Assembly (NCBI GenBank): GCA_937916485.1
Contig: CALFSV010000374.1
Coordinates: 1-10,258 of the forward strand
Direction: 5' to 3'
Source: an uncultured Paracoccaceae bacterium
Lineage (GTDB): Bacteria > Pseudomonadota > Alphaproteobacteria > Rhodobacterales > Rhodobacteraceae
Length of the DNA stretch: 10,258 nucleotides
Shown here: positions 1 to 10,258 of the stretch, piece by piece
How the letters are laid out: each line of letters opens with the position of its first letter
Position numbering within the stretch: the stretch's first letter is position 1
Notes under the pieces: generated by a model
Told to the model about the DNA's origin: nothing
Databases searched by the model: none
What the model saw: the letters and a program-made list of their open reading frames with translations, nothing else
Position numbers and translations under genes: made by a program

Positions 1-632
1 GCCTCTAGTAGGACAATGCTGTCCCACAATGGCCCATTGAAGTCGTTGTAAAACCCAGCGGCCTCGGCAACGCTCAGAAGCGCGGTCGCGGCCATCCCGT
101 CATATTTGAGGTTCGACAAAAGCACGTTTTCGGCCAGATGTTTGTTCACCCGCTGACGCGTGACACGACGCCCTTTGGGTTCGGGCTTTGGCGGAGTAAA
201 CCCGGATGGGATCTCTCCAACCGACAAACGTCCGCGCGCAACCGTTTTGCCATTTTGTACCGCCTCGCCGTGATAGTCATAGCCTGTCGTTGTACTCAGC
301 CGATGCGCCGTGATCTGCGTCGCGGCCTTTTGGCAAAAATTCGGAAACTCGAACTTCATCCGCCGCAAAAAGACCGGATCGCGCGGGTCCGCGCCGTCGC
401 GGTAAAGGACATCGGCGCGCACCAACTGGCTGATCGCTTCTGATAGGTGCAGGCCCGAGACGTGGTCCAGCGGGTGGTCAAAGAACAGCGGGTGACCTTC
501 GTCGATGATCAATCCGGCTGCGGCCCGCGCTGACTTCCCCGACCCCACAGAGGGGCGCGAAATCAGCAGATTCATCGGGTCGGATTTCTGGCTGCTTGCG
601 TAGAGATCTAGATGCAACCGGTGCGCTTGGTC
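1..632 (-). other. AfsA-like (A-factor biosynthesis) double hot-dog domain, putative chain-release domain; C-terminus cut by window edge
   Basis: About 210 residues follow ACP-D in the same frame. The first repeat (residues about 3209-3350) has NLLISRPSV and then FFDHPLDHVSGLHLSEA (codons 435-485), the hallmark of the AfsA family. A second repeat starts near residue 3368 (VNKHLAENVLLSNLKYDG) and reaches FYND ... LLE at the window edge; the spacing from Asp to Glu is the same in both repeats. The first two bases complete a GCN alanine codon, giving LLEA. AfsA enzymes transfer a beta-ketoacyl group to dihydroxyacetone phosphate in gamma-butyrolactone synthesis. I infer that this domain releases the chain onto a C3 unit. 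His in DHP (474-476) and Glu in SEA (438-440) resemble the FabZ-type catalytic His/Glu pair, by analogy only. Alternative: a diverged DH-like hot-dog of other function. Confidence 0.85.
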
Positions 633-3600
633 GACATCTGCAGCCACCTCGCTTGGTTCTATAATCTCGTCCACCTGCTTTTGCAGGGCATCAAGCGTGC
701 GGACATGCAACAAGCGCTCGCCCAGACCCGCAACAGATTTCAGAGCAGGCAGTTGCGCCTGCAGACGGCTGACGATGGTCATTAACCCTATGCTGTCGAT
801 CCCCAAATCACCCAGCCCTGCCCCGCTGTCGATCTCGTCGCTTGGAATGCCAAGGAAGGCCGCTGTTATGGCTAAGACAGGGCTATCAGCGGGGCTAGCT
901 GCCAGCTGTGGTTCAGGCGCCTTGGCGGGCTTTGCCGCAGCTCCTGGCGCGCTGACCCAATAGCGGTCCCGCGCAAAGGGATAACTCGGTAACGCGATCC
1001 GGCGTGGCGGGTCGGTTCGAAACCGGGGCCAATCAACGGGCAACCCGTTCAACCACGCATCACATGCCGCCGAGATATCCATTTCGGCCACCCAGCGGTC
1101 CTGTAGCAGCGCCACATCAGAATCCGAAAGGCCGCTGGTTTGGGTGACATGCACGCTGCGAGCGGTCCCAGAGCGAAGTGTCTGGACCATCTCTTCGACG
1201 GAGCACGCCACAAAGGCCAAACGATGCGGCATCGCCTCGCGCCCCACCTGCAGCGTATGAGAAACCCGTGCCAACAGGCCGGGGGCATCTTGCAGCGCCT
1301 CAACATGGCTGGCCAAAGCCTTGGCCTGTGAAGTGAGCGCCTCGGCACTGCGCGCCGACAGCACTATGATCTCTTGCGAGGTATCAGGTTGCGCGCAGTC
1401 ACCATTGGGCCACGACATGTCCCCTTCCTCGAGGAGGACGCTAGCATTCACACCGCCAAATCCAAACGAACTGACACCTGTCATCAACCGCTTGCCCGGC
1501 GCTGGTTGCCACTCGCGTGTCTCAAGCGCCAGATCAAATGCACTGCCTTTGACCTTTACGGCAGGGTTCAGCGTCTCAAAGTTCAGGTTACCCGCAATCC
1601 GCCGGTGCCGCATCTGAAGCACAGCTTTGATCAGCCCAGCGACGCCTGCAGCGACCTCAAGATGGCCGATATGGGACTTGGCCGTGCCGACGACACATGT
1701 GCCGCCGTCCTCAGCACCGTGGGACTTAAAGGCCGACTTCAGCCCCTCGATCTCAATCGGATCACCCAATGCTGTGCCGGTGCCATGCGCCTCCCAGCAG
1801 GTTATGTCGCTGGCATCCACGCCCGCACGACCGATAACCTCGGCGATTAGGCTGGCCTGCGACGCGGGGTTCGGGGCAGTCAGCGATGCAGCGCGCCCGG
1901 CATGGGCCACGCCAGAAGCTTTGACAACAGCAAGCACCTCATCACCGTCACGCCGCGCATCGGCCAAGCGTTTGAGAACGACAATGCCCACACCCTCGCC
2001 ACGCACATAGCCATTGGCAGACGCGTCAAACGTCTTGCAGCGCCCATCAGGCGACAGCATCCCAGCTGACGCAAAGGCCACGTGCATGTCCGCATTGGGT
2101 ATCACGTTCACGCCGCCCGCAAGCGCCATGTCAGTATACCCCGCCTTAAGATCTTCGACCGCGCGATGCAGCGCCACAAGGCTTGAGGAACACGCCGTAT
2201 CAAAAGGTTCGCTGGGGCCCTGCAGGTTGAGCATATGGCTGATCCGGCTCGGCCCGATCGAGGCCACGTTGCCCGTCACCCATCGGGGATCGCAGGTGTC
2301 GCCGCGCGCCTCGATGTTACGACAGTAGCTCGAATTCGAGGTACCAATATAGAGCCCTGTCTTGGTGCCAGCGAGGCTTGCCGGTGCGTAACCTGCATTT
2401 TCAATCGCAGCCCAAGAATGGGTCATCATCACGCGCTGCTGAGGGTCGGTCAACTCGGCCTCGGTCGGCGACATACCGAACATTTCGGGGTCAAACTCGG
2501 CGACGCTGTCGGTAAACCCACCCCAATGCACGTTGGTTTTCCCCTGCTCAGTCCGAGGGTCACCATCAACCGCGCGCCAATCCCAACGCCATTCGGGTGG
2601 ACGCGTGATGACATCGCGCCCAGCCATGAGGTTGGCCCAGAACGTTTCGATACTGTCTGCGCCAGGGAATGCGCCGCTCATGCCGATGATTGCAATGTCC
2701 GTGCTGTTTTGCTCGGGCGCCGGAGGTGTGATTACTTCGGGGGCCTTTAACGCTGGTTGTGCGGTGGGCTCGGTCACAGCAAGCAATGGGGCTGGGACAG
2801 GCTGCAGCTCTGGATGCGGCGCCTCGGACGCGCCCACGCCGTAATCCGCCACCAAAGCCGCACAAAGATCGCCCACAGTGTCCGTCCCGTAGAACAATAT
2901 AGGCTTGACCTCGACGGCAAACCGCGAGGTCAAGCGGCTGCCAAGCTCTGCATAAAGCAGGCTGTCAAAGCCAAACTCCGCCATGCTGATATCGGCGTCC
3001 AACTCGTCCCGCGGGATTTGAATGAGCGCCGAGATATCCTCCAGCACTTCTGACAAAACCCCTTGTACCGGCGCGCGCTCCAAACGGTTGGCGGGTTCAG
3101 GCGTATGATTCGCGACAGGCTCGGGGCGCGGCATTTGAGCCTCTGGCGCAGGCTTGAGCCGGGCAGCAAGCCCGTCAACGCTCGGGCTTTCGTAGAATAG
3201 CGTCGGCGCGATCTCTGCCCCTATCAACGTCTCAAGCCTTGCGCCCATCTCGGCAAAATTGATCGAGGTAAGCCCGAATTCAGAGAACTCGGCATCGCTC
3301 GCGATGTCGTCCGGGCTGACATGCGCCATTTCTGCAATCATTGTCTTGAGCGTTTGGACTAGATCCAAGCTCGCCTGTGACGGCTGCTGCACAGATGTGC
3401 GATCCCGCGTCTTGTCCGGGCGGCTCGGCACACGCGCGGTCTTTAGCCCAGCCAAATCGACCAGCACGGTCCCACTTGGAGCTTTGATCTGAATGTCAGT
3501 TCGCGAACCATCACGCTGCTCTGCCACTGCGATATCAACTTGGCGTGGCAAAGGACCAAGGACACGGACACAGTCTAGGTAGACCGGAACGCTGGTGGGC

Positions 3601-6600
3601 AGGGTCTTCTGCCCCAACACTAGGCCAAGCGTGGTCTGTAACGCCGCATCGAGCATGTTTGGCGGCAAAGCCAGCTGTGCCTCAAACGCGCCTTCAGGGA
3701 GCACCTGCGCCAGTCTTGCCTCTACCTGCCCCTTCGCCAACTCAGCGCTTTGGATAAGGCGGAAGGCCGGGCCATAATCGATGCCCATTTGTTGGAACGC
3801 TTCGTAAAACCGCGCACCCTCAGAAGTCACAGCAGCCGCAGAGATTGAAGGAAGTGCGACAACATATGTCTCGGTACAGGCTCCAAGCTTGCCTGTAGCA
3901 AAAACCTTGCCCTGCGCATCCTCCAGACCAAAGTCCCAGCGGGGACCGTCGCCACGCACGGCGAGAGACAGCCCACGGGTGACATCTTCCGCCGTTACCA
4001 TAGAGCGGAACGTCAGGCCGGTAATCTCGACTGCATCTGCGCCCGTAATTTCAACCGCTGCTGCGCGGGCGATCTCGATATAGGCGGTAGCAGGGAGGAT
4101 TTGTCTCCCCTGCACGACATGATCTGTAAGAAAGCTCGCGTCCGGTCTAAAACTCAGGTCAAAACGCCACCCTTCGGACGTGCGGGTTCCCTCACCGATT
4201 AGGCGCGGCGGCGTATGTGCGGGCGTGTCCGCATCCTTGTACCAACAGCGCCGCATATCCATCGCGGTCGGAGGCAGGCGCAATCGTTGCGGCAGACCAC
4301 GGCCAGTCGCAAGGCGCCAATCACGCCAATTCATAGGTTGTCCTGCAACAAAGGTTTGCGCCATGTCCGCGGGCGCTACGTCCACAGCAGACACTCCGCC
4401 GGTTTTTCCGGCCCGAACAGCCCCTGTGAGGACCTGAGACGCGCGCCCAGACAGCCAAGCCCGCAGTTCATCTTCAAGTTCCGGCAAGCTCGCTGCTACG
4501 ACGCCCAAACGGTGGCGCAACGGAGCGCGACCCAGTTGCACCGTCGCGCATAGTGCGTCGATGCTGATCTCTGGATTGCCGCCAATGAAATTGAGAAGGC
4601 TCTGCGCGGTGGCCTTTAAGGCCTTTTCAGATTGCGCTGACAGTATGAAGACCTCCGGTCCCGCCTGCGGACTCACTGGCTTTGGCTCCGGTGCATTCTC
4701 GACCACGACATGCGCATTCACGCCGCCAAATCCGAATGAGCTAACCCCCGCAACGCGCCGGGATTGCGCGGACCAAGCGCGCATCTCATCCACCAGTTCG
4801 AAGGGCGTTCCATCTAGCTTAATTGCCGGGTTTACCGCCTGCCTATGCCGGTCCGGGATCAATGTACCGTGCCGCATTTGCAGGAGCATCTTGATCAAAC
4901 CGACAAGCCCAGCCGCCACTTCTGCATGGCCAACATGGGATTTGACGCTCGACAGGGCGATGCTGCCCGAGGGCGAGACAAAGCTCTCAACTGCCTTCGC
5001 AATCCCGGCAAATTCAATGGGGTCCCCCACTGCAGTGCCGGTCCCATGCAGTTCGATCGCGCCCACGTCCTGTGGCGTTACGCCTGCCTCGTGCCAAACC
5101 TGTTCGATTAACGCCTGCTGCGCCTGGGCGTTTGGTGCGAACAAGGAACTGGACTTGCCCGAGTGGTTCACGCCCGATCCACGGATTACGCCATAGATCG
5201 GCAGCCCCTCTGCCTGCGCAAAGCTTAGTGGTTTCAGAACCAGGCTGCAGACCGCTTCGGACCGGACATAGCCGTTCGCATTCGCGTCGAACGTCCGGCA
5301 CCGCCCTTCGGGGCTAAGCATCGCAGACCGCGCAAAACTGACATGCGCGTAGGGCATCATCATTGTGTTGGTTGCGCCCACGATGGCGCCGTCGCAACCA
5401 TTGTGGATAGCCTCAACCGCGCGGTGAAGCGCGACAAGGCCGCTGGAACAAGCCGTCTCCACCGGTTCGGAGGGTCCATGCAGGTCCAGATAGGCCGAGA
5501 TCCGATTAGGTGACATCGAGCCGACCATGCTTGACGGCGACATCTGCTTCAGAACCAGCCCATCCTCACGTGCCATATCTGCGTAATCACTGGGCGAGGT
5601 CGCCATGAACACCGCCATCGAAGATCCGGCAAGAGCCGTTGGCGCAATGCCGGCATCCTCTAGCGCGCGCCAAACATGGGTCAGCAAAAGGCGCTGGTGC
5701 GGGTCCATAAAAGCCGCCTCGCGTGGCGAGATCCCAAAAAACAGCGGATCGAATTGGCTCAGGTCCTCGAGGAAGCCACCGAATTTGATGTCGCTCTTGC
5801 CTGGTTCGGACTTCGGGTCCCCCCAAATGGCGCGCCAATCCCATCGATCCCCAGGAATCTCGGAAATGACTTCGGAGGCGGCCCGCAGGTTTTGCCAGAA
5901 CTGATCAATCGAATTGGCGCCTGGGAAGGCCCCACTCATCCCAACAATGGCGATTGGGTCCCGGGTCCGCGTTGGCTCTGTGCGCCGGATTGCGGGGGCC
6001 GCTACATCCGGTTGGTTCAAGGCAAGTTCTTCCGTGATCGCCGTGCTGACCTCGGCCAGAGTGGTGTTCGAGTAAAAGAGGCTAGGATCAATCTGCACCC
6101 CGAGCGTTTGGGTGCACTGCGCCGCAAGTTCCGTAAACGCGATACTGTCGAACCCAAGATCGGCGAGCGCTTCATGAACATCGAGGTCTTCTGGCGCGAC
6201 ACGAACGATCTCGGCCACCGTGGCCCGCAATTGCGCGAGCACGTCCTGTACGGGTTGCGGGCGTTTTTGCGGAGAAGGTTTTGGCTCCGCACGCGGTGCA
6301 CACGCGCTGCCGTCGTCCAAGGTCTCTATGATCTTTTCTGGCCGTCCATATCCCACCACGAATTGGCCGTCCCCTTGATGAAGGGCTGCGTTCAATGCGT
6401 ACATACCGGCATCTGTCGGCATCGCCTCCAACCCAAAGCGGTTGGACATCGCATGCGCAGCCGCCTCTGGCACCGTCATCCCGCCCTCGGCCCAAAGAGG
6501 CCAATTGATCGAGACGCTACGCCCGCCCCCCTGCCCTTGGGCCACCTTCACGGCTCGTTCGCTCACGAAACCGTCTTGCCATCCATTGGCAAAAGCATAG

Positions 6601-9600
6601 CTGCTCTGACCCATATTACCGCTTAGCCCGGCCAGGGAAGAGCACAGGACAAACGCCTCAAGCCGATCCCCTCGCGTGGCCCGGTCAAGGGCGAGTGTAC
6701 CGGCGATCTTGGGTGCGGCCACGGTGGCCGCGTCTTGTGGCGTAGTCGCCATCAAGAGCCCATCGCGCAGCACGCCAGCCGCATTAATGACAGCCGAAAT
6801 CTCAGTGCCCGCCGCGCGAATGTCCTGTAGACAGCGCGCCAGCGCGTCTTCGTCTGCGATGTCGAGCGCGTGGTAGCTCGGTACCGCACCTAGATCTTTC
6901 AGTTCGTTCAAGACAGCGTTGATGCGTGCGTCGGCGGCCCCGCGCCCCAATAGCACCAGCCGCGCGCCCGCGTTTTGCTTGCTCAGATGCCGCGCGAAAT
7001 GCAGCCCGATGCCGCCTGCGCCTCCGGCAATGATTACAGCGCCCTGAGGTGCGAACGCGGGTACGGAGGCCGAGGTTTGCGAAACCAGCGCCCGGACGAG
7101 GCGTTGTCCACCATTGTAACGGATAAAGCGGTCCTCGCTGCGCGCGTCTTCTGCCAAGACAGCAACATCGCCGGCGATCTGGATCACCTGTCCGTGCAAA
7201 CCGGACCGCTCAGACCGGAGACTGCCGACAAACCCACAAACGGCATGCACGAGTGACAATGGCGCATCGTTCGGCAGAACCAGCTGCAACCCACCTGGAA
7301 CCCTCGCGCTTCCAAAGATCGGTGCCAGCTCAGCAACCAAGGCCTCTAAGAGAGTGCCAGGTTGTGTGTCTGGGCTCAGGTCGATGACCTCGGCATCCTT
7401 TACCCCTGCCAAGCGCGCTCCAGTCAGATTGACGACCAAACGACCTTCGGGGGCCGCGCGTGTTGCTGTCACAGCAGCCGGTTTCCAATCTACGGTGAAG
7501 CAGGCAAGGCCCTCTACGGGATCCGTCTGCAAAGAAGCTTCGGGCGTAGCAACCAATTTGCGTGACACGCCCCAATATCGGTGCTTGGCGAAAGGATACC
7601 CCGGCAGTGTCACCCTTTGTGGCTGCCATGTCTCGCTCCTTGGCCAATCCACGGACAGCCCATCCAACCAAGCCTGCACGGCCTCTTGCCAGTCGGCAGG
7701 CAAAGCAAGAGGTGTCGGATTGAGTCCGGGCGCAACGCGCCGTAAATCTCGGATCGCATCAGCCAAGTTGTCGGCAACAACTACACAACGATGTTTGAGA
7801 TCGCGGCGTCCAGTTTGCAGCGTAAAGGCAACCCCTGCTAGGCTGGGCTGATGCTTCTCTAAGTGAACAGAAATGTTCTGCACTAGAACTGCAAGCTGAT
7901 CCGCTGAAGCTGCCGAAAGCGGCAAAACACATGGGCCGGTTTCTTGGTTGGCCTGATCCAGCTTCACATATTCGCCGATCACCAGATGCGCATTACTGCC
8001 GCCGGCCCCAAAAGAGCTCAGCCCCGCGATACGTGGCCCTTCGCCCTGCGGCCAGGGCATCGACGTGAGAGGGATGTCAAAACCAAGTCCTTGAAGGCCC
8101 AAATCAGGGTTCTGTGTCTGCGCATGGATATTTGGTGCAATCTCAGCGTGCCGGAGCTGCAACAAGAGTTTTGTGAGCCCTGCAATCCCGGCCGCGCTTT
8201 CGCAATGGCCGATATTCGCTTTGACCGAGCCTAGCGACAGCGCAGTATCGCCATACGCGCGACGTAGGCCGGCAATCTCAATCGGATCACCAAGCGAGGT
8301 GCCCGTGCCGTGACATTCAACAAAACTCACCTCATCCGGCGTGACCCGAGAGCGCGCCAATGCGTCCGCGATTGCATCACCTTGCGCCACCGGATCAGGC
8401 ACTGTGTAGCCATTGGCACGACCACCATGGTTGACCGCCGATCCCTTGATCACGGCCAAAATTGGATCGCCGTCGCGTTCTGCTGCATCAACTGGCTTCA
8501 AGACTACCGCGCCAACACCTTCGGACGGGACATAGCCATCACCGCCCGCACCGAACGCCCGGCACCGACCATCGCTCGCCTCGAACCCGCCATGGGCCAT
8601 CATCAGGTATTTGTTGGGGTGCAATGTCAGGTTCACGCCGCCAGCAACCGCCGCCTCGCACTCGCCGTTTTGCACCGCCTGCACTGCCAGATGGATCGCG
8701 CTGAGCGAAGATGAGCACATCGTATCCACGGCCATGCTCGGGCCCGTCAGATCCAACGCATAGGATACCCGGTTCGCAATCGACGCGGGACTTCCGGACA
8801 GGGCGGTCGGCGTTCCGGCTAGGGTCTGTTCAACGCCCAATAGCTGGTACTCTTCGTACATGACGCCAACAAAGACACCCACACGCTGACCAAGCGTTTC
8901 CGGTCTATGCCCGGCGCTTTCAATCGCGTGATAGCTCGTCTCAAGGAAGAGCCGCTCTTGCGGGTCGGCAAGCTCTGCATCTTTTGGAAGCATCCCAAAG
9001 AATGGCGCGTCGAATGCGTCGACATCGGTCAGGAAGCCGCCCCATTTGCTGCGGGTCTTGCCCTTGACTTTGTCCGAACTGAAATAGGGTGTGTGATCCC
9101 AGCGGTCTCGCGGGATCTCGGTGATGCTGTCGCGACCAGCGCGCAGGTTATCCCAGAATTGATCCAGTGTGTCGGCGCCAGGATAGCGCCCTGCCACGCC
9201 TATAATTGCAATGTCAGACGCATTTTCGAGCGGCCTAGCGGGAGTCTGAGCCGCCTTGCGGTCATATGTGCCATCCAAATGTTGGGCCAGACTGCGAAGC
9301 GTGCGGTACTCAAAGAAGAGCGTCTTTGGCAGTTCACCGAAATGCGCCTCAAGCTGCTCGGTCAGGTGAATCACCATGATCGAGTCCAGCCCGTAGCCTT
9401 CGAGCAGCGCTTCGGCGTCGATGCTCTCGGGCGGCAGCTTCAGCAGCGTTGCGATTTCAGCCCGCAGAACATCGATCACGTCTGTGCCACTGGGACTTGG
9501 AGGTAAAACTTCGAGTGCCGTGGAGTTTGGCGTTTCCTCTGATGGCGCATCGATCCAATAGCTGTCTTGCGCGAACGGATAGAGAGGCAGTGCAACAGGT

Positions 9601-10258
9601 GCCAAGCGATCCTCGGCAAACAGGGCGTCCCAATCAATGTCATGACCAGTCGTCCAAAGGTCAGCAATCACCGCAAGATCTCTCGCGGCCCAAAGAGCTT
9701 GTGCCGCCGACTTGGACAACGGTTTGGATGCAGCAACTGTACCCAACTTGGCAGTCGTCGGCGCTCCACTTAGCCAAGCGCGCAAGTTCTGTTGCCACTC
9801 GTCCCAGTCGCTCGCGACAACCGCAAGGCGCGTCACATGTTGGTCTCGGCCCAACTGCAGTGTCCGCGCTGTCGCGGCAAAGTCAGGACGCGAGTCCAGA
9901 GACGCAAAATGCTCTGCCAATTGGCGCAATTGATCCTGCGTCCGCGCCGACAGAACGCATAGCTGAGGACCAGCCAGAGGTCGCGGCGCGCGTGCATCAG
10001 GTGCCTCCGACAGTATCAAGTGCCCGTTTGCGCCCCCTGCTCCGAAAGAGCTCAGACCCGCATGCCTTGGTCCGTCCGCTGGCCATTCTCGCAGTCGAGC
10101 CGGGATGCTAAAGCCTGCGCTGTCTAGGTCGATTTCCGTGTTAAGCGGCTCGGCCCCGAGGCTTGGCACGATTTGCCGGTGTTGCATTTGTAAAATCAGT
10201 TTGAAGAGCCCTGCGAACCCGGCCGCGCTTTCGCAATGGCCAATATTGGGCTTTACGG
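1..10258 (-). CDS. Giant trans-AT modular polyketide synthase, internal-to-C-terminal part (both ends outside window)
   Basis: A single minus-strand frame (codons starting on the plus-strand triplets at 3-5, 6-8 and so on) is open for 3418 codons, and translating it throughout gave no stop. The protein builds a polyketide chain while it is tethered to carrier-protein arms, probably in the cytoplasm. Domain order is partial KS, ACP, KS, KR, ACP, KS, DH, ACP, ACP, KS, ACP, AfsA-like. Four ketosynthases are recognised by the NIGH, DTACSSS and HGTGT motifs, and five ACPs by a phosphopantetheine serine in G(L/F/I)(D/T)S(I/L). No acyltransferase GHS motif occurs after any KS, so malonyl loading must be done in trans. 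No thioesterase is seen; an AfsA-like domain takes its place. The start lies beyond 10258 and the stop before base 1. More modules upstream are likely, because KS-A is already cut. Class assignment is very secure; the product is unknown. Confidence 0.97.
660..884 (-). other. Acyl carrier protein domain ACP-D (terminal carrier)
   Basis: The last carrier domain lies between KS-D and the AfsA-like domain. The serine is in LGDLGIDSIGLMTIV (codon 792-794, residue 3155). The rest (VSRLQAQLPALK ... LLHVRTLDALQKQVDEII) fits helices II to IV. An alanine- and proline-rich linker precedes it. It would present the finished beta-ketoacyl chain to the release domain. Helix III lacks the LFxY signature seen in the other four carriers, which may reflect a partner other than a KS. 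Confidence 0.9.
957..2699 (-). other. Ketosynthase domain KS-D (last condensing domain) with post-KS linker
   Basis: The last KS starts at DIAIIGMSGAFPGA (residue 2520). Its catalytic residues are complete: Cys in DTACSSSLVALH (codon 2190-2192, residue 2689), His in AHGTGTALGDP (1785-1787, residue 2824) and His in KSHIGHLEVAAG (1662-1664, residue 2865). The core closes in SSFGFGGVNASVLLEE, where serine replaces the histidine of the usual NAH. The linker ends in YPFARDRYW at residue 3100. It should carry out the last malonyl extension. No KR, DH or ER lies between it and the following ACP, so the product is a beta-ketoacyl thioester, the type of substrate used by the AfsA-like domain downstream. 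Confidence 0.96.
2841..3068 (-). other. Acyl carrier protein domain ACP-C2 (second of a tandem pair)
   Basis: The second carrier domain of module C has the standard motif FGFDSLLYAELG, with the serine at 2961-2963 (residue 2432), and a helix III reading KPILFYGTDTVGDLCAAL. Tandem ACPs usually raise flux at a step or serve trans-acting tailoring enzymes. Neither copy has the tryptophan typical of beta-branching ACPs, so HMG-CoA-synthase-type branching is not supported. A linker of about 45 residues, rich in proline and alanine, connects it to KS-D. Confidence 0.93.
3156..3371 (-). other. Acyl carrier protein domain ACP-C1 (first of a tandem pair)
   Basis: This is the first of two carrier domains in series after the DH. 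The attachment serine is kept, but the motif reads FGLTSINFAEMG: the usual aspartate before the serine (codon 3264-3266, residue 2331) is threonine. Helix II (INFAEMGARLE) and helix III (APTLFYESPSVDGLAARL) look normal, so the domain is probably folded. The aspartate helps the phosphopantetheinyl transferase recognise an ACP, so the change could lower loading, although TS-type carriers are known. The linker to the next ACP is rich in proline and glutamate and about 35 residues long. Confidence 0.9.
3429..4187 (-). other. Dehydratase domain DH of module C
   Basis: This double hot-dog dehydratase removes water from a beta-hydroxyacyl-ACP to give an enoyl chain. The N-terminal motif HxxxGxxxxP is intact in DHVVQGRQILPATAY, with the catalytic His at 4119-4121 (residue 2046). 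The YGPAF motif is at residue 2161, and the second catalytic residue, Asp in NMLDAALQ, is at 3648-3650 (residue 2203). The conserved proline and DxxxQ both argue against a double-bond-shifting or pyran-forming variant. The module has no KR to make its substrate, so the hydroxyl probably comes from the module B KR (a dehydrating bimodule) or from a trans-acting KR. Confidence 0.93.
4242..5960 (-). other. Ketosynthase domain KS-C with post-KS linker
   Basis: A complete KS starts at DPIAIVGMSGAFPGA (residue 1433). Catalytic residues are all present: Cys in ETACSSGLVALH (codon 5448-5450, residue 1603), His in LHGTGTAVGDP (5046-5048, residue 1737) and His in KSHVGHAEVAAG (4926-4928, residue 1777). 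The core closes with SSFGFGGVNAHVVVE near residue 1850. The motifs match KS-D rather than KS-A and KS-B, so this is a different KS lineage. The linker is atypical: it ends RLPPTAMDMRRCWY and has no YPF motif. Since the next domain is a DH and the module has no KR, KS-C could either extend the chain or simply pass it on. The intact histidines favour extension, but passive transfer cannot be excluded from sequence. Confidence 0.95.
6021..6251 (-). other. Acyl carrier protein domain ACP-B
   Basis: This carrier domain closes module B. The phosphopantetheine serine is in LGFDSIAFTELA (codon 6144-6146, residue 1371). The helix-III region reads DPSLFYSNTTLAEVS. It is preceded by a linker rich in proline and lysine after the KR and followed within about 25 residues by KS-C. 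It would carry the beta-hydroxyacyl chain made by the module B KR. No tryptophan marker of beta-branching is visible after the serine. Confidence 0.94.
6318..7502 (-). other. Ketoreductase domain KR of module B
   Basis: This NADPH-dependent domain reduces the beta-ketone made by KS-B to a hydroxyl. It has a structural N-terminal half (residues about 920-1070) and a catalytic Rossmann half. The nucleotide-binding loop is GGAGGIG (codons 7005-7025, residues 1078-1084). The catalytic set is complete with normal spacing: Lys in APKIAG (codon 6708-6710, residue 1183), Ser in SSLAG (6636-6638, residue 1207), Tyr in QSSYAFAN (6597-6599, residue 1220) and Asn four residues later (6585-6587). The stereochemistry loop reads GVLRDGLL, keeping the last aspartate of the LDD motif, which suggests a B-type KR. 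That stereochemical call is weak, because the first aspartate is replaced by arginine. No DH or methyltransferase lies in this module. Confidence 0.95.
7572..9215 (-). other. Ketosynthase domain KS-B with post-KS linker
   Basis: This is a complete decarboxylative condensing domain. It begins at DIAIIGVAGRYPGA (residue 348) and has all three catalytic residues: Cys in DTMCSSSLSAIH (codon 8715-8717, residue 514), His in CHGTGTSLGDP (codon 8310-8312, residue 649) and His in KANIGHCESAAG (codon 8205-8207, residue 684). The core closes with SSFGAGGSNAHLVIG, and the linker ends in YPFAKHRYW at residue 895. KS-B takes the chain from ACP-A and extends it with a malonyl unit on ACP-B, which must be loaded by a trans-acting AT because none is encoded between the KS and the KR. 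A methionine replaces the usual alanine before the active cysteine, a variant I believe is common among trans-AT ketosynthases. Confidence 0.96.
8175..8216 (-). repeat. KS-B copy of a near-identical 42-base stretch shared with KS-A
   Basis: This stretch encodes the region around NIGHCESAAG of KS-B. By direct comparison it matches 10206-10247 in KS-A at 39 of 42 bases, including an uninterrupted identical run of 24 bases (8187-8210). Third-codon positions are also conserved, which points to recent duplication or gene conversion between modules rather than protein-level constraint alone. Confidence 0.85.
9273..9482 (-). other. Acyl carrier protein domain ACP-A
   Basis: A carrier domain of about 70 residues lies between KS-A and KS-B. 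The phosphopantetheine attachment serine is in YGLDSIMVIHL, with the serine codon at 9381-9383 (residue 292). The third-helix region, LPKTLFFEYRTLRSLAQHL, is typical of trans-AT PKS carrier proteins sitting just upstream of a KS. The domain holds the growing chain as a thioester between KS-A and KS-B. It has no tryptophan just after the DSI motif, so it lacks the usual marker of a beta-branching ACP. Confidence 0.94.
9552..10258 (-). other. Ketosynthase domain KS-A (C-terminal part) with post-KS linker
   Basis: The window opens at the third catalytic motif of a condensing ketosynthase: PNIGHCESAAG, with the catalytic histidine at 10236-10238 (residue 7). The active-site cysteine and the HGTGT histidine lie outside the window. 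The KS core closes with LSSFGAGGANGHLILSE near residues 63-79. A linker of about 150 residues follows and ends in YPFAQDSYW at residue 234. The linker goes straight to an ACP, with no acyltransferase or reductive domain, so this module is a bare KS-ACP and its beta-keto group should stay unreduced unless a trans-acting enzyme intervenes. The KS type resembles KS-B, both having NIGHCESAAG and a GAGG closing motif. Confidence 0.93.
10206..10247 (-). repeat. KS-A copy of a near-identical 42-base stretch shared with KS-B
   Basis: This is the partner of 8175-8216, with 39 of 42 bases identical and a perfect 24-base core at 10218-10241. It lies at the edge of the window, so the homologous tract may extend further upstream into the part of KS-A that is not visible. 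Confidence 0.85.

Follow-up and report, generated by a model that had tools for sequence, protein, structure and literature searches.

Chain release by an AfsA-like domain has been shown in the literature for one Burkholderia product, gladiostatin, which is the same as gladiofungin (statements from the literature, here and below, draw on extracts of the papers cited). The gladiostatin acyl carrier protein (ACP)-PBS di-domain released 3-ketoacyl groups with dihydroxyacetone phosphate (DHAP) in vitro (PMC7756379), gladiofungin was abolished by deletion of most of the AfsA domain (PMC7756420), and the gladiofungin cluster includes the HAD phosphatase gene glaP (PMC10574677). The gladiostatin line is described as having nine modules, with glutarimide machinery made up of a starter trio (including the AH-AT-ER tri-domain protein GdsB) and a seven-domain first module (PMC7756379). 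AfsA-terminated lines are also on record in Gloeobacter, Paenibacillus and Ruminiclostridium (PMC7756420), a gladiofungin-like cluster is on record in Massilia (PMC10213415), and alphaproteobacterial glutarimide lines are on record as sesbanimides (PMC8262917). Here we describe a stretch of 10,258 nucleotides from contig CALFSV010000374.1 of an uncultured Paracoccaceae bacterium (the window), which is very probably the last part of a trans-acyltransferase (trans-AT) polyketide synthase (PKS) of the gladiostatin/gladiofungin type, ending in an AfsA-family domain. Among openly licensed PMC papers we found none on an AfsA-terminated glutarimide line in Rhodobacterales and none joining glutarimide, Rhodobacter and polyketide synthase.

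The terminal domain and its module

One uninterrupted open reading frame (ORF) spans the window (3..10256, minus strand, 3418 amino acids, open at both ends) and its domains, in the direction of translation, run (KS)-ACP / KS-KR-ACP / KS-DH-ACP-ACP / KS-ACP-AfsA, where KS is ketosynthase, KR ketoreductase and DH dehydratase. The last of these is an AfsA-family (phosphorylated butenolide synthase-like) domain at 3..632 (minus strand, as are all window features below), of which the first hot-dog half is whole and the second is cut by the window end, stopping at ...DSIVLLE within the second-half EAxRQ motif. Its PF03756 (AfsA) score was 42.4 bits, above the cut-off of 24 (E 9.1e-11; residues 18-104, profile positions 6-90 of 133), and no other Pfam family matched at E 0.01. 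The signature of the first half is HPLFFDHPLDHVSGLHLSEAISQ (426..494), with HP.FFDH.LDHVSG invariant in 11/11 domains of alignment A1, and the second half begins at VNKHLAENVLL (117..149), with VNK and NVL invariant in the same 11 domains. The original prediction, made from the letters of the window, of an in-frame double hot-dog AfsA domain behind the last ACP was borne out as to frame, family and position, the window itself holding the second half only in part.

The complete domain was seen in two near-identical loci, L001 (98.6% identity to the window over 2525 bases) and L002 (98.2% over all 10258 bases), the latter lying on a 49-kb contig from a Paracoccaceae metagenome-assembled genome (MAG), called the twin contig below. 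It shows two PF03756 stretches in both, the second lying under the cut-off in the genome search (22.7 bits in L001 and 22.2 in L002); taken whole, the L002 domain scored 53.7 bits over two stretches, with PF03756 its sole Pfam family even at E 10. The L002 protein stops directly after the AfsA domain (this C-terminus, seen in L001 and L002, lies outside the window) and no thioesterase family was among the 15 Pfam families matched in the window ORF, in keeping with the prediction that AfsA stands in the place of a thioesterase. An identity as a thioesterase, DH or FabA/FabZ protein was rejected, as no such Pfam family matched the whole L002 domain at E 10 or the window piece at E 0.01, and the Pfam check proposed with the prediction came out for AfsA. 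Membership of the ScbA/BarX butyrolactone synthases (equivalog NF041195) was also rejected, as the score was far under the cut-off and the match was not collinear: the whole L002 domain reached 53.1 bits against a cut-off of 200, in two stretches with the best on profile positions 194-288 of 290, and the window piece 45.9 bits, compared to 247 bits (1-285) and 319 bits (1-289), each in one stretch, for the classical controls L041 and L016.

Immediately ahead of the AfsA domain is the last acyl carrier domain (666..872, GIDSI), which has a weak profile score (26 bits) and carries the GIDS serine, and ahead of that is the last ketosynthase (1407..2705, by profile and motifs), with C-H-H motifs intact. 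KR and DH are both absent from this last module, KS-ACP-AfsA, which, judging from the domain order, has no KR and therefore should carry a beta-keto thioester of the kind condensed with DHAP in the gladiostatin PKS.

A HAD-like gene lies directly behind the PKS in 9/9 loci with a DHVSG-type AfsA domain (L001-L009; tblastn with the HAD protein), the start of the match being offset by -4 to +20 bases relative to the stop codon of the PKS. These nine loci represent seven distinct cases, L001/L002 and L003/L004 being near-duplicates, and include Paenibacillus (43% identity); all extend back into carrier domains and, except for the short L005, into a ketosynthase too. No match was obtained in the 14 other AfsA loci searched (of 45 others). 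The DxDG and DD motifs are preserved in the seven HAD-like sequences aligned, and the gene product is, from its sequence, a putative phosphatase, which would be the counterpart of the cluster phosphatase of the gladiostatin-type class.

The assembly line on the twin contig

PF00698 (AT) was not found in the window, in PKS1 or in the first half of PKS2; the AT is supplied by a separate protein upstream on the twin contig, as in trans-AT lines. Profile matches there give, in assembly-line order, an AT-AT-PfaD-type enoylreductase (ER) protein (1115 amino acids), an ACP (92 amino acids), an asparagine-synthase-like amidotransferase (660 amino acids), PKS1 (2907 amino acids, KS-DH-KR-ACP-KS-B-ACP-KS) and PKS2 (6852 amino acids, KR-ACP / KS-ACP / KS-DH-KR-MT-ACP / KS-ACP / KS-KR-ACP / KS-DH-ACP-ACP / KS-ACP-AfsA), making eight modules in all. 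The features of a glutarimide line, namely AT, ACP and asparagine-synthase-like starter genes with a KS-DH-KR-ACP-KS-B-ACP module, are thus present on this 98%-identical contig, outside the window, the B domain being assigned from a partial match to RhiE (4kc5, E 9.8e-18) and a weak DH-like match (22 bits) at the same place. The parallel with gladiostatin/gladiofungin drawn in the prediction holds up, as in both papers the release domain is described as AfsA-like and C-terminal, and the core genes near the twin fit the cluster as published.

Proposed chain release and alternatives

We propose that the final KS would leave the last ACP loaded with a beta-keto acyl chain and that the beta-keto group would stay unreduced, the last module having no KR. 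The C-terminal AfsA domain would then move the chain to a hydroxyl of DHAP, the presumed acceptor, and an aldol-type condensation would close the ring, freeing a phosphorylated 2-acyl-3-hydroxymethyl butenolide from which the HAD-like putative phosphatase encoded by the next gene probably takes off the phosphate; the product would bear a glutarimide at its other end. DHAP-dependent release by the C-terminal AfsA domain is the best explanation because of the gladiostatin-like layout, the last module without KR and the adjoining putative phosphatase, and we hold it with considerable confidence. The release on to a C3 acceptor followed by butenolide formation that had been predicted is supported by the AfsA match, the lack of KR and thioesterase and the putative phosphatase, with DHAP and the butenolide as likely acceptor and product.

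Several points weigh against this. Proteins of the DHVSG-type family are known from sequence alone, with no recorded product or activity, the likeness to the gladiostatin release domain is drawn from the published description, and the Burkholderia gladioli domain did not surface in one scan of genome contigs. The Arg of EAxRQ in the half that bears the Asp-His motif is invariant in 18/18 classical AfsA sequences aligned, but is replaced by S, C, A, G or V in PKS-type domains, and P0020 and P0021 have Gln for the Glu of this motif as well. In ScbA both the Glu and the Arg of EAxRQ are important, and we presume that the FabZ-like His/Glu of the AfsA fold may be catalytic. The HAD-like proteins fall under Pfam cut-offs where scored (L002, L008 and L009; 17.4 against 26.4 bits for L002), that of L007 has no Pfam match at all, and the Ser/Thr of motif II appears from the sequence to be replaced (CYGG). 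Four of the five window ACPs have GxDS, but one, in the tandem, reads GLTSI, and the B-domain match to RhiE covers 118 residues, of which about 80 are outside the stretch common to most other KS structures.

A role as a hydrolase or cyclase of AfsA fold, releasing the chain as an acid or cyclising it without DHAP in the manner of hot-dog thioesterases, is unlikely. Modelled with AlphaFold2 (24 sequences), the whole L002 domain came out confidently as a double hot-dog (predicted local distance difference test 86.1, predicted template modelling score 0.88), and the solved folds nearest to it are TesB thioesterases, PKS dehydratase and product-template domains, acyl-ACP thioesterases and a trypanosome mitoribosome-assembly protein; but the double hot-dog fold that these have in common says nothing on function, the sequence places the domain in AfsA, and the putative phosphatase gene behind it in 9/9 loci is best explained by a phosphorylated product. 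No close solved structure was found by sequence, the best E values being 0.2 with the single domain and 0.51 with a profile of eleven.

Use of another C3 acceptor, such as glyceraldehyde 3-phosphate or glycerol phosphate, to give a related lactone or furan is very unlikely, although AfsA-family pathways are described as yielding diverse products, including butyrolactones, butenolides and furans (PMC7756379). The prediction had looked for a phosphatase or reductase downstream; the putative phosphatase is indeed the next gene, but a search of neighbouring genes on the twin contig showed no stand-alone short-chain dehydrogenase/reductase (SDR)-type reductase like the glaG/gdsH oxidoreductases, so later steps differ or lie elsewhere. 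Against this, the acceptor is DHAP in gladiostatin, the only PKS-fused case that has been reconstituted. That the assembly line is a pseudogene or an assembly artefact is hardly credible and is largely refuted by the conserved frames, as, although near-identical copies were found here only in two MAG contigs and P0003 and the MAG labels conflict, the frame is open over more than 10 kb with motifs present, and lines of this kind occur elsewhere, both on other contigs and in the Cognatishimia sp. F0-27 genome record.

Order of the hot-dog halves

The FFDHPxDHVPGM half is the second of the two in classical AfsA of Streptomyces and Nocardia, whereas in the fused domain the Asp-His-bearing half comes first. 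A half-versus-half profile comparison of 11 fused and 24 classical domains matched the fused first half to the classical second half with 99.5% probability (E 1.6e-22), compared to 67.6% for the classical first half; the fused second half matched the classical first half with 92.8% probability (155 columns) and the classical second half with 94.1%, over 51 columns only. The NF041195 matches of the L002, L008 and L034 domains are split into two stretches, the best at the model C-terminus, unlike those of the controls, which run end-to-end in one. As a separate piece the first half fell on profile positions ~179-289 in 5/5 proteins, and the second half fell on the N-terminus in 2/5 (5-156 for L034 and 3-62 for L008). 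Telling against a swap, the second halves of L002 and L012 have no NF041195 match and that of L009 falls on profile positions 171-228, not the N-terminus; the score of the fused second half is nearly the same for the classical first half (50.7, 155 columns) as for the classical second half (49.7, 51 columns), and the second half of the free-standing Rhodobacterales proteins matches the classical first half weakly (26.4%). At the level of sequence it is well supported that the halves are swapped in the PKS-fused domain family, the second half being the weaker leg. The swap is stated for the domains analysed here, and among the matches listed in the openly licensed PMC literature there was no relevant paper on AfsA circular permutation. 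The Asp-His-bearing half is also first in the free-standing Rhodobacterales proteins and in three actinobacterial ones.

A tree of 41 rows, including the window, was made, with P0003, P0006, P0008, P0009, P0011 and L004 omitted as near relatives of kept rows; its branches are long and its deeper order is unsure. The 28 DHVSG-type rows make up one side of a branch (97/99); L009 reads DHISG, and P0023 and P0024, both among the 28, are short fragments for which no link to a KS was observed. Eight free-standing Rhodobacterales proteins form a separate group (100/99), and two further PKS fusions, L010 and L011, fall outside the DHVSG-type group. It seems somewhat more probable than otherwise that the DHVSG-type PKS-release domains are an AfsA-fold lineage of their own, with halves circularly permuted relative to the Streptomyces synthases and kept with a dedicated HAD phosphatase, and that this lineage came with the assembly lines into Rhodobacterales and was not recruited from local butyrolactone synthases.

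The L010 and L011 fusions (ORFs 4898-10816 and 3302-10810 respectively) are of DHVPG/DHIPG type, have about 30% similarity to the AT-AT-ER protein within the same ORF and have no HAD match in the locus. Their genomes are labelled Deltaproteobacteria (Myxococcota in the taxonomy of the tree) and Gammaproteobacteria, and they are perhaps a second, cis-AT fusion class.

Relatives of the fused domain

Of 3923 candidates searched with the domain of P0001, 22 large PKS proteins, P0001 counted in, matched at E<=1e-3; DHVSG and a C-terminal AfsA domain were found in 22/22. P0003 shares 99.0% identity with the window across the full 3418 residues and may not be independent of it. The exact domain order of PKS2 was seen in 9/22 (P0002-P0006 and P0008-P0011), P0007 and P0012 have this order with one extra ACP, P0013-P0016 have a KR added in the KS-DH module and P0018-P0021 have a different ending; P0001, P0017 and P0022 are shorter, P0022 having no detected ACP between KS and AfsA. 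Organisms represented include Antarctobacter jejuensis, Humidesulfovibrio idahonensis and Cognatishimia sp. F0-27, the last of which has genes for an AT-AT-ER protein, an amidotransferase, a HAD protein and an ABC protein, together with an ORF of PKS1 size. Of 394 genomes drawn from the family of Cognatishimia sp. F0-27, six had a match, only two of them PKS-fused (G004 and G007, both found before), and therefore the fused form is rare in this family. A draw of 369 genomes from the class of G401 gave G401 itself (L011) and one weak 199-amino-acid frame.

Plasmid records gave no match to the window piece at E 1e-5 and no megablast match to the window; with the whole domain as query and laxer limits, 42 and 27 weak matches came up, the named ones being AfsA-related or ScbA/BarX. 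A Mycetohabitans plasmid match was ruled out as a PKS fusion, being a gene of 561 bases, and an Aliiroseovarius match is a free-standing gene with an oxidoreductase adjoining.

Other features of the window and neighbouring genes

The other window domains were assigned from profiles and motifs. Before the last module lie the tandem carriers (2835..3344; two ACPs, the first being that with GLTSI instead of GxDS), a dehydratase domain (3393..4190, HxxxGxxxxP) and a ketosynthase (4674..5963), preceded in turn by a carrier domain (6018..6224), a ketoreductase domain (6477..7061), which keeps its glycine-rich and Ser/Tyr motifs, a ketosynthase (7947..9221, TMCSS), a further carrier domain (9255..9461) and the C-terminal piece of a ketosynthase that the window end truncates (9984..10256). 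Both of these whole ketosynthases have intact C-H-H motifs, the Cys, HGTGT and GH motifs being present in all three whole KS domains of the window, and the solved chain best matching the KS domains is 7zma. The KS-DH-ACP-ACP module (3393-5963) has no KR, where P0013-P0016 have one, and therefore reduction comes from elsewhere or does not occur.

After PKS2 on the twin contig come the HAD-like gene, a gene for a cyclic-peptide-type ABC exporter (TIGR01194, above cut-off) and genes for DUF697, Band_7 and ligand-binding proteins. The latter three, the ligand-binding protein being of the receptor type (L002:13343-16059), are in the same order in L003, L004, L006 and L007 and were not found in L008; they are perhaps for self-protection. 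Farther upstream are transposase genes, a phosphopantetheinyl transferase gene and, beyond the transposases, an ornithine-cyclodeaminase-like NAD(P)-binding protein gene. Upstream of the cluster, L058:8771-12119 (on contig C93 of G001) holds Mutator/IS256-type and rve-type transposase genes, and transposase genes beside the cluster suggest mobility. MAG labels conflict for near-identical DNA, L001 and L002 (98.0% identity over 3356 bp) being labelled Sphingomonadales and Paracoccaceae, and L003 and L004 (99.5% over 10585 bp) Sphingomonadaceae and Pseudorhodobacter, which reflects mis-binning or recent transfer.

Significance and comparison with known systems

Glutarimides are described as inhibitors of eukaryotic translation (PMC7756379), and the Rhodobacterales clusters, one of them in the Cognatishimia sp. 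F0-27 genome record, offer new glutarimide-butenolide candidates and a second test of the release mechanism. Two testable ideas arise: from the swapped halves, that the AfsA active site tolerates permutation, and from the tightly kept HAD gene, that release and dephosphorylation act as a pair.

The free-standing Rhodobacterales AfsA-hotdog proteins (L012-L014, L020, L022, L024, L027 and L038) share with the PKS-fused domains an Asp-His-bearing half that comes first, but they are encoded by frames of 275-581 amino acids, with no KS match in the two longest, form a separate clade and have no HAD match in the locus. The EAxRQ Arg of their second half is Met in 8/8 (LLEAFMQ-like), and their chemistry may be different. 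A killing cluster of Ruegeria pomeroyi is described as including an AfsA-domain protein (PMC7426152), which is likened to these proteins by its description only.

The sesbanimide PKS of Alphaproteobacteria such as Magnetospirillum is likewise a glutarimide trans-AT line with an amidotransferase, but is described as ending in non-ribosomal peptide synthetase modules and a thioesterase rather than AfsA (PMC8262917, PMC10574677). Classical AfsA/ScbA/BarX of Streptomyces has in common with the present domain two PF03756-type hot-dog halves and the FFDHPxDHV.G and EAxRQ motifs; the present domain differs in being fused to a PKS, in its reversed halves, in having mostly DHVSG for DHVPGM, in the loss of Arg from the Asp-His-bearing half and in scoring under the NF041195 cut-off.

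The gladiostatin/gladiofungin PKS, as far as the published extracts describe it, resembles the present line in its trans-AT organisation, in having an AfsA-family domain behind the last module and in the HAD phosphatase of its cluster, as well as in the AH-AT-ER protein, ACP and asparagine-synthase-like starter genes and the KS-DH-KR-ACP-KS-B-ACP first module (gdsB/C/D/E). The different module order that had been predicted was confirmed: the present line, which is alphaproteobacterial, has eight modules to the nine of gladiostatin, and its modules 5-7 (KS-ACP, KS-KR-ACP and KS-DH-ACP-ACP) are unlike modules 5-8 as published. AfsA-terminated lines and alphaproteobacterial glutarimide lines were both already on record, and the most novel point is the swapped order of the halves.
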